Source of the DNA: Bacteroidota bacterium
GTDB lineage: Bacteria > Bacteroidota > Bacteroidia > B-17B0 > Aurantibacillaceae
Direction: 5' to 3'
DNA: 64,000 bases
Assembly: GCA_016194985.1 (NCBI GenBank)
Contig: JACQAK010000101.1
Span: 1-64,000 of the forward strand
The position numbers and the translations under genes were made by a program. The notes under the pieces were generated by a model. The model did not search any database. It saw nothing but the letters and a program-made list of their open reading frames with translations, and was not told the DNA's origin. Positions 27,493-31,876 of this stretch are shown in pieces (the stretch's first letter is position 1; each line of letters begins with the position of its first letter).

Positions 27493-27567
27493 GGTAGGTA
27501 TAGCTCAGTTGGTTAGAGCACCAGATTGTGGTTCTGGGGGTCGCCGGTTCGAACCCGGTTACTTACC
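27493..27567 (+). tRNA. tRNA-His (anticodon GTG)
   Basis: The acceptor stem GTAGGTA (27494-27500) pairs with TACTTAC (27560-27566, one G-T pair). An extra G at 27493 faces the discriminator C at 27567, the G-1:C73 pair specific to tRNA-His. The D arm has GCTCAGTTGGTTAGAGC. The anticodon stem CCAGA/TCTGG encloses loop TTGTGGT with anticodon GTG, and the T arm contains GGTTCGAACCC. CCA is not encoded. It reads both CAC and CAU codons. Confidence 0.97.
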
Positions 27568-27573
27568 CTTCTT

Positions 27574-27608
27574 AAAGGCTGTTTGCTAGCTAGCGGACAG
27601 CCTTTTTT
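27574..27608 (+). terminator. Intrinsic terminator of the tRNA-His gene
   Basis: AAGGCTGT (27575-27582) pairs with ACAGCCTT (27597-27604). Two T-G pairs and GC/GC continue the stem to a TAGCTA loop, and a run of six T (27603-27608) follows. It begins seven bases after the tRNA 3' end. With the repeat, the promoter and the tRNA it accounts for most of the non-coding stretch 27331-27646. Confidence 0.88.
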
Positions 27609-27621
27609 GTTTTGTATTCGT

Positions 27622-27629
27622 TATATTTG
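27622..27629 (+). promoter_or_regulatory. -7 box before the DoxX-like gene cluster
   Basis: TATATTTG is an exact match to TAnnTTTG, 17 bases before the ATG at 27647 and downstream of the tRNA terminator. No good -33 TTG lies at the expected distance. It is the likely promoter of the five-gene run 27647-31065. Confidence 0.5.
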
Positions 27630-27646
27630 ATTAGCATTTGTAACCT

Positions 27647-28036
27647 ATGGGCAGACAAAAATTATATAAAATTCTGATCTATTGCATTGCTACAGTCTGG
27701 TTCATTAATGGGCTTTTTTGTAAAGTATTAAACCTAGTTCCAAGACATGAGCAAATTGTTTCTGAAATTATAGGAGCCGAACACGCAGTTCTATTTACAA
27801 AACTCATTGGCATCTCTGAAATATTAATGGCAATATGGATCTTATCAGGTATCAGATCACGATTCAATGCTATTGCACAAATACTCATTATTGCAACCAT
27901 GAATACAATGGAATTCATATTAGTTCCTGATCTATTATTGTGGGGCAAGTTCAATTCATTATTCGCTTTTGGTTTCATTTGCATTATTTTCTGTAACGGA
28001 TTTATTGTACATAAAAAATTAATTCAACATACTTAA
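27647..28036 (+). CDS. DoxX-like small membrane protein
   Basis: 129 residues with four predicted helices: 'ILIYCIATVWFINGLFCKV', 'LFTKLIGISEILMAIWIL', 'IAQILIIATMNTMEFIL' and 'LFAFGFICIIFCNGFIV'. The 'WFINGLFCKVLNLVPRHEQI' stretch after helix 1 and the short loops fit the DoxX-like family, inner-membrane proteins with diverse partners and mostly unknown activity. It ends one base before the next ATG, so it is translationally coupled to the DUF2071 gene and heads a five-gene run. No catalytic residue pattern is evident. The family assignment is by overall pattern. Confidence 0.75.
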   Translation: MGRQKLYKILIYCIATVWFINGLFCKVLNLVPRHEQIVSEIIGAEHAVLFTKLIGISEILMAIWILSGIRSRFNAIAQILIIATMNTMEFILVPDLLLWGKFNSLFAFGFICIIFCNGFIVHKKLIQHT

Positions 28037-28037
28037 C

Positions 28038-28775
28038 ATGCTTTCATTCCTCAAAGATCATCCGTTTGCTGTGGAAGCTTTTTTTGAAAGCTCTCTTGTG
28101 TTAACTTTTGCAATTCCTAAAGACGAAATAAAACACCTGATTCCGGAATGTTTGGAGTTAGACACATTCAACGATCAATGGGCTTTTATTGCTGTGGCTA
28201 TGGTTCAAACCAAAGAGCTTAGACCAAAGGGTTTTCCGAAATTTATGGGTAATGATTTCTTTTTAATTGGTTACAGGGTTTTTGTAAGGTATACCAACAA
28301 TGCAGGTAAACGATTAAGAGGATTGTATATTCTTAAATCGCAAACCGACAAACAGAAAATGGAATTCTTTGGAAACCTGTTTACTCATTATAATTATACA
28401 ACTACCGATATTCAGCAAACTAAAAATAATAATAGTGAGCAGATCACATCTAATCTGTCAGGTTTGAATATAGAATATGAAACAGAAAACGAAAATGCCT
28501 CCTTACCGGAATATTCTCCTTTTGCAGATTGGAAAGAAGCGAGAAGGTTTGCAGGCCCCTTGCCGTTTACATTTACTTATAATAAAGAGAAGAAAGAAGT
28601 GTTGATCATTGAAGGTGTTCGTGAAAACTGGACGCCAAGCCCTGTGCATATAAAAAATTATTCGGTTTCTTTCATTGAAAAATTAAATCTTAAAAAGATC
28701 GTATTAGCAAATGCATTCATTATTAAAAATATTCCATACTATTGGAAAAAAGGAAAGGTAGAACAATGGAAATAA
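28038..28775 (+). CDS. DUF2071-family protein
   Basis: 245 residues, soluble, without signal peptide. The N-terminus 'HPFAVEAFFESSLVLTFAIP' and 'LIPECLELDTFNDQWAFIAV' with 'MGNDFFLIGYRVFVRY' is the pattern of DUF2071 (acetoacetate-decarboxylase-like fold). A central Lys or Arg could be important, but I cannot point to a catalytic residue. Neighbours on both sides are membrane or lipid-type proteins, so an enzymatic role on a small carbonyl or lipid-linked compound is possible but inferred. It starts one base after the DoxX-like gene and overlaps the methyltransferase gene by 10 bases. Confidence 0.8.
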   Translation: MLSFLKDHPFAVEAFFESSLVLTFAIPKDEIKHLIPECLELDTFNDQWAFIAVAMVQTKELRPKGFPKFMGNDFFLIGYRVFVRYTNNAGKRLRGLYILKSQTDKQKMEFFGNLFTHYNYTTTDIQQTKNNNSEQITSNLSGLNIEYETENENASLPEYSPFADWKEARRFAGPLPFTFTYNKEKKEVLIIEGVRENWTPSPVHIKNYSVSFIEKLNLKKIVLANAFIIKNIPYYWKKGKVEQWK

Positions 28776-29518
28776 AAAGAAGAAGCTTTCAGGGAGTACT
28801 AAATATTTTAAGTTTTAACAGGCATTTTTATGTATTAGGCCTTGGGGCTTTAGCTTTAATAATATTCAGTTACATAGTGTTTCAATGGTCTGATATTTTG
28901 TTTTGGGTAATCTTCGCTTCATTTATGTATGGCCTTACCATGCCATTGATTGTTTCTGCTTATGTTTATGATTTTTCGGGATATTATAATTTTGACTGGT
29001 TAAAAAAACATTCTGTAAATGTTTCTGAGTCTAAACAACTCTTAAACATTAATGCAGGCTTCGATGAAACAAGTTTTATTATTCAAAACAATTTTCCTAA
29101 CGCCAATTTAAAAGTATTTGATTTTTATAATCCAAAACAGCATACGGAACCAGCCATTATAAGAGCCCGAAAAGTAAGTCTGGTATTTCCAGACACCCAA
29201 CAAATAAAAACAAATCACATTCCTTTGGAAGATCGATCCATTGATATTATCTTTCTCCTATCTGCCGCCCATGAAATAAGGTCGCAGGAAGAAAAAATAC
29301 AATTTCTAAAAGAATGTTATAGACTATGTAAACCAACCGGAAAGGTAATTATGGCGGAACACTTGCGGGACTTTCCTAATTTCTTAGCATTCTCGGTGGG
29401 TTTTACTCATTTTTTTTCAAGAGCGGTTTGGAAAAAATCATTTGAAAGTGCCGGGTTCACTTCATTTGAAGAAACTAAATTCACTCCGTTTATATCTATC
29501 TTTGAATGTTGTCCTTAA
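28766..29518 (+). CDS. Membrane-anchored class I SAM methyltransferase
   Basis: 250 residues from the ATG at 28766, preceded by GGAAAGG; an alternative ATG at 28742 would add eight residues. Two hydrophobic helices ('FYVLGLGALALIIFSYIVF', 'ILFWVIFASFMYGLTMPLIV') precede the catalytic domain. The glycine loop is unusual ('LLNINAGFDETSFII' in place of GxGxG). It is followed by an acidic strand end 'LKVFDFYNP', 'PLEDRSIDIIFLLSAAHEIR' and 'CYRLCKPTGKVIMAEHLRDF', which fit motifs II-IV and the post-IV helix of class I methyltransferases. It probably methylates a membrane-borne lipid or quinone. It is embedded in the 27647-31065 run. Confidence 0.82.
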   Translation: MEIKRRSFQGVLNILSFNRHFYVLGLGALALIIFSYIVFQWSDILFWVIFASFMYGLTMPLIVSAYVYDFSGYYNFDWLKKHSVNVSESKQLLNINAGFDETSFIIQNNFPNANLKVFDFYNPKQHTEPAIIRARKVSLVFPDTQQIKTNHIPLEDRSIDIIFLLSAAHEIRSQEEKIQFLKECYRLCKPTGKVIMAEHLRDFPNFLAFSVGFTHFFSRAVWKKSFESAGFTSFEETKFTPFISIFECCP

Positions 29519-29528
29519 TTTATATAGT

Positions 29529-29924
29529 ATGGAACTACACCTTAAAATAATTGGTTATTTATTAATCATTTTGGCATTCGTTCATGTAATTTTTCCTAAA
29601 AGATTCGATTGGAAAAAAGAATGTGGTTCTCTGTCTTTAATTAATAAACAGATGATGTATATACACACCTTTTTTATTGCTTTAATAGTTTTATTGATGG
29701 GAATATTATGTATTAGTTCCTATTCAGAATTAATTGAAACGCCACTAGGACATAAAATATCATTAGGTCTTTTTATATTCTGGTTCATGAGGTTCTTTGT
29801 CCAGTTTTTTGGTTACTCTTCTGAACTTTGGAAAGGAAAAAGATTTGAAACAGTAGTCCATATTGTCTTTTCCATTTTCTGGACTTATGTGAGTATCGTA
29901 TTTTTTATGGTATATTGGAGGTAA
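29529..29924 (+). CDS. Small four-helix membrane protein, unknown
   Basis: 131 residues from the ATG at 29529, ten bases after the methyltransferase stop. An upstream in-frame start at 29442 lies inside that gene and is unlikely. Four hydrophobic stretches: 'IIGYLLIILAFVHVIF', 'YIHTFFIALIVLLMGILCI', 'ISLGLFIFWFMRFFVQFFG' and 'IVFSIFWTYVSIVFFMVYW'. Conserved-looking His residues sit in helix 1 (FVHVIF), helix 2 (YIHTFF) and before helix 4 (TVVHIVF); this could allow heme or metal binding, but that is speculation. I do not recognise a family. It ends four bases before the next ATG. Confidence 0.78.
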   Translation: MELHLKIIGYLLIILAFVHVIFPKRFDWKKECGSLSLINKQMMYIHTFFIALIVLLMGILCISSYSELIETPLGHKISLGLFIFWFMRFFVQFFGYSSELWKGKRFETVVHIVFSIFWTYVSIVFFMVYWR

Positions 29925-29928
29925 TTAA

Positions 29929-31065
29929 ATGCAACAATTCGACGTTATTATATGCGGAGCAGGCCCGGCCGGAAGTACCTGTGCTTTGGGGCTCTTTGAT
30001 GCAGGGTTACACGTGGCCTTGTTGGATAAGCAATCTTTTCCAAGAGAAAAAATATGCGGGGATGCCTATGGAGGTTATACGTATAAAATATTAAATACCA
30101 TCTCGCCAAGGTTTGGAGCCCGGCTATTAGCTCTGAATCAGGGCGCTATGATCAAACGGGCTCAATTTGTATCCCCAAAAGGACATCTGGTAGAACTAAG
30201 ACTGAAAGGGTCTTTCACAAGTTTACCCCGTCATGTTTTTGATAATTTTTTATTGACGATGGTAAAAGAAGAAACCAATACCAGTGTTTTTGAAAATACC
30301 ACGGCACAAAAAATCTCCATTGAAAAGGATCATATACTGGTTACAACTCATGAAGGAAAAGAACTAAAAGCAAAAATGGTTATTGGCTGTGATGGTGCTC
30401 ACTCTATTGTGCAATCGGCCTTAACCAACACACGTGAAACGTTAACGGAAACTTATCCCGGTATTCGTGCCTATTATAAAAATGTGAAAGGATTGGAACC
30501 TGATTGTCTGGAAATTCATTTTTTGCCCAATATTCCCAAAGGTTATTTCTGGATCTTTCCTTCTACTAACGGGTTGAGCAATGTGGGCATTGCCGCTAAT
30601 AAAAAGATGCTGGCCAAACACAACATCAATATGCGCAAGGAGTTTCATTATTTAATGAATGAATCACCGCAATTTAAAGAACGCTTTGCCGAAGCCGAAT
30701 TGGTGGGAGAAGAAAAAGGATGGTCTATCCCTATAGGATACTTTGATAGTACATTACCTATCTCAGGCAACCGGGTAATACTTTGCGGAGATGCGGCAGC
30801 ACTTGTAGAGCCTGCTACCGGCGAAGGCATTGGACCTGCGATGTCATCAGGGCGTTATGCCGCCTGGCAGATCAAAAAGTGCTTTGCGCAAAACAATTTC
30901 TCTGCTGATTTTATGAAAGGCTATGATAAAGCCATTCGTAAAAAATATGTACGCAATTATTTTTTCAAAACCAGTATTACGAATCTCTATTATAGAATGC
31001 CTTTCTTAATGGATTGGGTCATCGGCTTCTTTTCGGTATTGCATCGTTTGCAGGGGAGACGCTGA
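29929..31065 (+). CDS. Geranylgeranyl-reductase-like FAD oxidoreductase
   Basis: 378 residues. An N-terminal FAD-binding site 'DVIICGAGPAGSTCALGLFD' is followed by 'LLDKQSFPREKICGDAYGG' (the P-R-x-K-x-C-G-D motif typical of geranylgeranyl reductases and related tryptophan halogenases) and 'VILCGDAAALVEPATGEGIG' (second FAD motif). Members reduce double bonds in prenyl chains or oxidise aromatic and polyketide compounds. There is no separate reductase partner. As the last gene of the run with a membrane methyltransferase, it suggests modification of an isoprenoid or quinone lipid, which is an inference. It converges on the DUF4846 gene with one base between the stops. Confidence 0.87.
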   Translation: MQQFDVIICGAGPAGSTCALGLFDAGLHVALLDKQSFPREKICGDAYGGYTYKILNTISPRFGARLLALNQGAMIKRAQFVSPKGHLVELRLKGSFTSLPRHVFDNFLLTMVKEETNTSVFENTTAQKISIEKDHILVTTHEGKELKAKMVIGCDGAHSIVQSALTNTRETLTETYPGIRAYYKNVKGLEPDCLEIHFLPNIPKGYFWIFPSTNGLSNVGIAANKKMLAKHNINMRKEFHYLMNESPQFKERFAEAELVGEEKGWSIPIGYFDSTLPISGNRVILCGDAAALVEPATGEGIGPAMSSGRYAAWQIKKCFAQNNFSADFMKGYDKAIRKKYVRNYFFKTSITNLYYRMPFLMDWVIGFFSVLHRLQGRR

Positions 31066-31066
31066 T

Positions 31067-31876
31067 CTAAAATCTTCTTAGCTGGGTTTCTGCAAAGGGC
31101 CATTCAGGTGTTTCAATAAGAGTTGCTGTCTCATCGAGCTCATACCAGGGAGAAATGGTCGGCTTGTGTTCGTTGATCAATACATGAATGTCCTGCGCCG
31201 GCATATAACTTTGGGCAATCATGAATAATTTTTTATGGGTTGTTGTATGGATTGCCATATCTACAATAATGACTGCATGTCCCGGGGAACCTCCTTTAAT
31301 AAACACATCACCAATTTGCATCTGAGATAATGTGATGGGCTTTAATTCTTTAGCTAACGATGCAGTTCCTGCGTACATAAACACTATATTGAGATACTCT
31401 CTGAAAGACTGATAGGACGTACTTTCTTTAGTAGTTGCTATCCAATTTACTGAATTTCCTTTCACCGCTATCCGATAGCCACTTCTCCACTTACTATAAG
31501 CGGCATTAAAGCCGTTCGTGAAATTAAAATGCAGGGCCTCATATTGCTTTGTACTATATAAGTATTCTGCTCTCAAGCGCATCACGGCATCGGCACATTG
31601 TTGCAAATCTTTCAATCCCACATCATAATTTAAAACGGCGGCAGCTACATGATTGGGTTTTTCTTCTCCACTATAATAATGTACTTTGGTGCCATACGGC
31701 TTTAAAGCGGTATTTTGTAAAAATCCGGCAAATGAATTTTTTTCTGACTTTACCCTTACATAATTAGCAGGTGTTAAAAAGCGTTCCGAAATAGTAGCCC
31801 CTGATGAATTTATCAAAGGCGATCCCTGTTGTTTGCGAAAAGAGAATACAACTATCAAACAGGTAAGAATACCCAA
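31067..31876 (-). CDS. Exported DUF4846-family protein
   Basis: 269 residues as read from a TTG at 31876; no ATG is available in this frame upstream, so the start is uncertain. A hydrophobic N-terminus ('ILTCLIVVFSF') is followed by 'RFLTPANYVRVKSEKNSFAG', 'VAAAVLNYDVGLKDLQQCAD', 'RLRAEYLYSTKQYEALHFNF', 'FNAAYSKWRSGYRI' and 'VFIKGGSPGHAVIIVDMAIH', the pattern of DUF4846. The last stretch with its 'GHA' and the earlier conserved Cys (QQCAD) hint at a papain/NlpC-like fold, which is an inference. It follows ftsX by 31 bases on the same strand. Function is unknown. Confidence 0.75.
   Translation of the reverse strand: MGILTCLIVVFSFRKQQGSPLINSSGATISERFLTPANYVRVKSEKNSFAGFLQNTALKPYGTKVHYYSGEEKPNHVAAAVLNYDVGLKDLQQCADAVMRLRAEYLYSTKQYEALHFNFTNGFNAAYSKWRSGYRIAVKGNSVNWIATTKESTSYQSFREYLNIVFMYAGTASLAKELKPITLSQMQIGDVFIKGGSPGHAVIIVDMAIHTTTHKKLFMIAQSYMPAQDIHVLINEHKPTISPWYELDETATLIETPEWPFAETQLRRF

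Follow-up and report, generated by a model that had tools for sequence, protein, structure and literature searches.

Class I methyltransferases are marked by a canonical loop, [DE]xGxGxG, and by an acidic residue on the second strand that holds the ribose of S-adenosylmethionine (SAM). The DUF2071 family has been assigned to the fold of acetoacetate decarboxylase (ADC), with the Schiff-base lysine reported as unconserved in the family (PMC4520260). In the literature that we searched, DUF2071 appeared in one paper only, and none was found that joins DoxX with DUF3419 or describes a methyltransferase operon of the present kind in Bacteroidetes. Here we analyze a run of genes in which a DUF2071 gene and a methyltransferase gene stand between the genes of two four-helix membrane proteins, the first of them belonging to the DoxX_3 family, and which is closed by the gene of a geranylgeranyl-reductase-like flavoprotein. 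It occupies positions 27647–31065 of a 64,000-nucleotide stretch (the window) of contig JACQAK010000101.1, from the genome of a Bacteroidota bacterium (assembly GCA_016194985.1; 93.9% complete, 236 contigs). The first four genes constitute a real, co-inherited unit, referred to below as the cassette, which is absent from the family libraries and papers searched, has one member outside every Pfam family, and offers a small, testable starting point in the search for a new modification associated with membranes.

A co-inherited four-gene unit

Five open reading frames, all on the + strand, were verified in the order and at the positions given by a first-pass annotation made from the sequence, and its account of tight packing, with gaps of one to ten bases and one overlap, agrees with their spacing of 1, −10 (the overlap), 10, and 4 bases. 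Gene A (27647–28036) encodes the DoxX_3 four-helix membrane protein (PF13781, 64.3 bits against a cut-off of 25) and is followed, after 1 base, by gene B (28038–28775), which encodes the DUF2071 protein with its ADC-like fold (PF09844, 59.9 bits against 27). Gene C (28766–29518) starts with an ATG within a 10-base overlap with the DUF2071 gene, and encodes a class I methyltransferase whose N terminus forms a hydrophobic hairpin and whose loop reads NINAGFDETS (PF08241, Methyltransf_11, 32.5 bits against 21.2). Gene D (29529–29924), 10 bases further on, encodes the second four-helix membrane protein, for which a Pfam search gave no match; a comparison of A with D revealed no homology between these four-helix proteins. 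The flavoprotein gene (29929–31065) begins 4 bases after gene D, and its product passes the NCBIfam model GG-red-SF (TIGR02032; 206.3 bits against a cut-off of 158.8) and matches Pfam FAD_binding_3 and GGR_cat (34.3 bits against 27 for the latter).

A methyltransferase search of 41 near genomes gave full-length matches in six relatives (G003, G006, G019, G020, G025, and G033), and when 396 genomes sampled from the phylum (395 besides the window's own) were searched, 12 further carriers appeared. At all 18 of the other Bacteroidota loci examined, the A-B-C-D order and the single strand are kept, B is the second gene and D the last, and B and C overlap, by 4–13 bases; since the contig of one locus (L054) ends before gene A, A is the first gene in all 17 loci that reach it. 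The carriers span 12 Bacteroidota families, of which two do not belong to the window's class. A separate search with a profile of the DUF2071 subfamily returned the identical 12 genomes together with one remote relative, in genome G371, where no DoxX, methyltransferase, or four-helix protein was found near the DUF2071 gene; this remote protein apart, the B and C subfamilies share one and the same set of 12 carriers among the 395 other Bacteroidota genomes. Chance falls far short of explaining the four-gene order, and because order and joints are kept over 12 families and into Streptomyces, the four genes are strongly selected to act together. The first-pass annotation had seen an uncharacterised methyltransferase system that is associated with the membrane, compact and self-contained, and without a known pathway gene, a description that holds for these four genes; it had also proposed seeking the five-gene order in other Bacteroidota, where the four genes were indeed found together and the fifth proved to be scattered.

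A resident flavoprotein gene and a mobile cassette

In the genus of the window, NadB and tRNA-His are usually followed, at a varying distance, by an amidase-like gene, FtsX, and TrmD, and the slot so formed (27494–31876 in the window; loci L114–L131) is either empty or holds the flavoprotein gene, the cassette, a tetratricopeptide-repeat (TPR) protein gene, or other cargo across the sister genomes. Only about 40 bases separate tRNA-His from the amidase gene in G012 and G007, in which the slot is empty; G019 has the flavoprotein gene alone, directly after tRNA-His; G005 and G013 have it with other genes, and neither genome carries the cassette; and in G006 the slot holds the cassette without the flavoprotein. 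The two occur together in the slot in the window only. In G019, which is apparently one record with L011 (genome G437), as the cassette match lies at C435:1088-1837 in both, they are found on different contigs. The flavoprotein query found no match in any of the other cassette loci, and the cassette carriers G003, G006, G020, and G033 have no flavoprotein match at E 1e-30. The G+C content of the flavoprotein gene (41.5%) is like that of the resident genes and unlike that of the cassette. Because it is unlinked at other loci, lies in the slot without the cassette in sister genomes, and has resident-like G+C, the flavoprotein is a resident of the slot beside which the cassette landed, and falls outside the cassette.

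This decides against the five-gene proposal of the first-pass annotation, a single system, flavoprotein included, for modifying membrane lipids or quinones. The packing of the fifth gene with the cassette is real in the window genome, where it starts 4 bases behind gene D and is probably co-transcribed, but it is kept nowhere else examined, and we consider a five-gene system very improbable. The quinone or isoprenoid substrate suggested with it rested mainly on the flavoprotein and loses its footing accordingly; since the methyltransferase fails all quinone-methyltransferase cut-offs and the reductase lies outside the system, quinone chemistry is left with no positive support. The case illustrates how tight packing in a single genome can merge two unrelated things, the neighboring reductase having suggested quinone/isoprenoid chemistry. 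Even less credence, to the point of near dismissal, is due to the idea that we see here a type III polyketide synthase cluster (alkylresorcinol-quinone, srsABC-like) which has decayed or been split and has lost its synthase: all eight type III synthase loci examined in relatives (L032–L039) do include a flavoprotein of the same broad superfamily, but these synthase-linked flavoproteins are just 21–25% identical to that of the window, none of the loci has a cassette gene, and no PF00195 or PF02797 (chalcone-synthase-family) match occurs in the genome, of whose assembly ~6% is missing.

The left edge of the slot is formed by the tRNA-His gene (anticodon GTG; 27494–27568, + strand; found with ARAGORN), and in most of the sister genomes examined this tRNA-His likewise stands before the slot. 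Its transcript would end at a terminator hairpin and T-run (27574–27608, + strand) with a perfect 9-bp stem, AAAGGCTGT/ACAGCCTTT, followed by TTT, and a comparable hairpin lies behind tRNA-His in G006, G012, and G019. The −7 box that had been placed before the run is present as the TAnnTTTG promoter-like sequence TATATTTG (27622–27629, + strand), but boxes of this type are frequent by chance in AT-rich DNA here, so that it is not significant alone and constitutes weak promoter evidence; a TTTG −33 partner was looked for 17–21 bases from it, and none was found. An orthologue of the flavoprotein gene in G005 (L012 7989–9122) has an internal stop and is apparently dispensable there.

The cassette itself has spread horizontally, crossing phyla. 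Its surroundings differ at almost every locus, and its genes have a G+C content of 28.8–33.9%, against 35–43% for the flanking genes. The window methyltransferase is 78% identical to those of G003 and G019 and 66–71% identical to those of G317, G197, and G103, which belong to other families, but just 41% identical to that of G006, from the same genus. In quick trees, window genes A and D group with G006 (support of 0.86 and 0.95, respectively), while C joins the G003/G317 clade; internal shuffling of the cassette, in addition to its transfer, is therefore probable. In a tblastn search of 72,556 plasmids, cassette matches were found on Streptomyces plasmids only, where the genes for the DUF2071, methyltransferase, and four-helix proteins directly follow one another in this sequence, and it is this plasmid-borne occurrence that shows the block crossing phyla. 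The Streptomyces methyltransferase can be aligned with that of the window almost from end to end (30% identity, E=4e-33), the Streptomyces methyltransferases score 37.0 and 33.2 bits with Methyltransf_11, and the window DUF2071 protein is 36–37% identical to its plasmid homologues. The plasmid of Streptomyces sp. Caat 7-52 also has the DoxX_3 gene (62.8 bits with PF13781; E 1e-13 with the cassette DoxX profile), with a DUF3419 (BtaA-like) gene inserted between A and B (L133 8066–8995). None of 299 Pseudomonadota genomes was matched by the methyltransferase or the DUF2071 profile, in a search made without a positive control.

Some neighbors of the cassette elsewhere can be recorded alongside. 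In G197 (L053 7742–8243), it begins 43 bases 3' of tRNA-Ala, making this another cassette directly behind a tRNA gene. Genes for helix-turn-helix (HTH)-WCX regulators lie just upstream of the cassette at L056 8123–9019 and L059 8076–9652, in both of the f63 genomes, and at L059 a C92 papain-like amidase gene stands between the regulator gene and the cassette.

A putative membrane-bound SAM enzyme

The product of gene C consists of two N-terminal hydrophobic helices followed by a Rossmann-type domain, in which the canonical loop is not found and one of its three glycines is retained. In its place, all 19 Bacteroidota sequences have AGFDE ([NTS][IV][NHST]AGFDE) and the Streptomyces sequences have [SA]TGLDE. 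In an alignment of these 21 sequences (19 from Bacteroidota and 2 from Streptomyces), the invariant residues include G98, D100, E101, D119, Y121, T127, E128, R133, and R135, and further along H169, E170, R172, E198, R201, N205, H215, and W222. Alignment with the solved methyltransferase 3mgg places the loop on motif I and D119 on the strand-2 aspartate, so that gene C has the acidic residue of class I methyltransferases. The atypical SAM loop reported by the first-pass annotation is thus real, and its conservation across two phyla makes it a family signature rather than noise; its unusual part is the loss of the first glycine, a missing third glycine being known in the leucine carboxyl methyltransferase (LCM) family.

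Among the partners, the single-sequence model of gene D has four long helices (mean predicted local distance difference test score, pLDDT, of 67). H19, W28, H46, R88, W101, and H111 are invariant, and the helix limits suggest that H19, H46, R88, and H111 would lie nearer the same face of the membrane. No lysine or glutamate is invariant among the 21 cassette DUF2071 proteins, which argues against ADC-type decarboxylase chemistry for gene B; an identity as acetoacetate decarboxylase was rejected on this ground and on an ADC profile score of 13.9 against 29.8. Gene A is not accompanied by any of the known partners of other DoxX proteins. A search of solved structures with A, B, and D returned nothing credible.

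On balance, and with modest confidence, we favor the reading that a horizontally spread cassette, which came to lie with tRNA-His on one side and the resident flavoprotein gene on the other, encodes a membrane-bound SAM enzyme complex. The four proteins would form a single complex. In it the methyltransferase, anchored in the membrane through its N-terminal hairpin, would add a methyl group, or another group derived from SAM, to a small molecule of hydrophobic or amphiphilic character. The four-helix pair, A and D, may supply a membrane pocket lined by conserved polar residues, and the DUF2071 protein may bind the polar portion of the substrate or process it, by a route that does not use the Schiff-base lysine of acetoacetate decarboxylase. 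Among the substrate classes, lipids are perhaps the likeliest, weakly ahead of a hydrophobic compound that is being detoxified. Two neighbors hint at a lipid, namely a sphingolipid Delta4-desaturase-like gene that shares 4 bases with the beginning of the DoxX gene (L057 7496–8877, genome G185) and the DUF3419 gene located within the cassette of Streptomyces sp. Caat 7-52.

Several points weigh against this reading. The substrate, the activity, and the complex are deduced from sequence and gene context; two of the canonical loop glycines are absent from gene C, which makes its use of SAM less certain, and its single-sequence structure model is unusable (mean pLDDT of 42), while a Foldseek comparison of the gene D model with the PDB gave no match. 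The lipid hints come from one locus each, the other upstream neighbors are unrelated (WCX and ArsR regulators, a carbonic anhydrase, and a nuclease), and DUF3419 does not track with the cassette: 3 of 19 genomes with the cassette and 2 of 28 without it have this gene. A link to betaine lipids (BtaA/BtaB) was rejected, given this negative co-occurrence and a DUF3419 gene that adjoins the cassette on one Streptomyces plasmid only.

Two rival explanations accept the cassette and dispute what it does. It could serve detoxification or a stress response, modifying a toxic hydrophobic compound such as an antibiotic, an organometal, or an oxidised lipid instead of building a cell component, an alternative that we regard as unlikely: its sporadic presence (the 12 of 395 genomes above), its mobility, and its plasmid location in Streptomyces all fit, as do the regulator genes directly upstream at some loci, of the ArsR type (ArsR/SmtB) in S. 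lavendulae and S. yangpuensis and of the HTH-WCX type at L056. These regulators are not conserved neighbors, however, and most loci have none; PADLOC found no defence-family match, and neither Pfam nor NCBIfam assigned a resistance family. A role as an anti-phage defence system was likewise rejected, PADLOC giving two marginal scores only (E 0.02–0.09). It is more doubtful still, and in our estimation improbable, that gene C no longer methylates and that its altered loop binds another ligand within a transporter, a sensor, or some other enzyme. The replacement of two of the three canonical glycines by AGFDE, with no canonical copy among the 21 sequences, and the membrane segments carried by three of the four products would be in keeping with such a role, but the invariant D119 is expected to hold the SAM ribose, the Methyltransf_11 score is above its cut-off, and a loop with local similarity, GAG[FYL]D, is found in LCM-type methyltransferases.

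A bolder form of the membrane-bound SAM enzyme that we favor can be put forward tentatively, as a possibility that we hold to be rather less than probable: that Bacteroidota and Streptomyces share, by horizontal transfer, an undescribed membrane-embedded SAM complex, whose methyltransferase has the new SAM-loop signature GxDE...DxYDP...TE...RAR...HExR...EHxRD and acts together with an ADC-fold protein and a pair of four-helix proteins on a membrane-dissolved lipid to give an uncatalogued lipid.

Comparison with known families

The cassette proteins and the adjoining flavoprotein can each be set beside a described family. Gene C shares with UbiE/MenG-type and other Methyltransf_11 proteins a Rossmann-type C-terminal half with the motif IPLxDxSxDxIFxxxAxHE...FxxExxRxLKPxGxxxxxE, but differs from them in its N-terminal two-helix membrane anchor and in having AGFDE instead of GxGxG. 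Its identity as a menaquinone/ubiquinone methyltransferase was rejected, as it scores 24.4 against 158.35 with TIGR01934 (MenG/UbiE) and all NCBIfam equivalogs lie far below their cut-offs. The V[NI][LI]GAG[FYL]D loop and the acidic-x-D-x-P element of LCM-type enzymes (leucine carboxyl/PPM-like, PF04072) resemble LNINAGFD...DFYDP of gene C, but gene C has no Pfam LCM match, and a single profile comparison gave a probability of 12% and an E of 0.0025; the likeness is local and the profile match too weak for membership of the LCM family. The flavoprotein, unlinked to the cassette, is over the cut-offs of TIGR02032 and of the geranylgeranyl reductase catalytic domain, with 3oz2 as its closest solved chain (E=1e-23), and under every equivalog cut-off among the matches listed. 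Gene B is a DUF2071 protein by its PF09844 score, set apart from ADC-like proteins with Schiff-base chemistry by the lack of an invariant lysine or glutamate, and gene A, above the PF13781 cut-off, represents a DoxX_3 subtype tied to DUF2071 and the methyltransferase.

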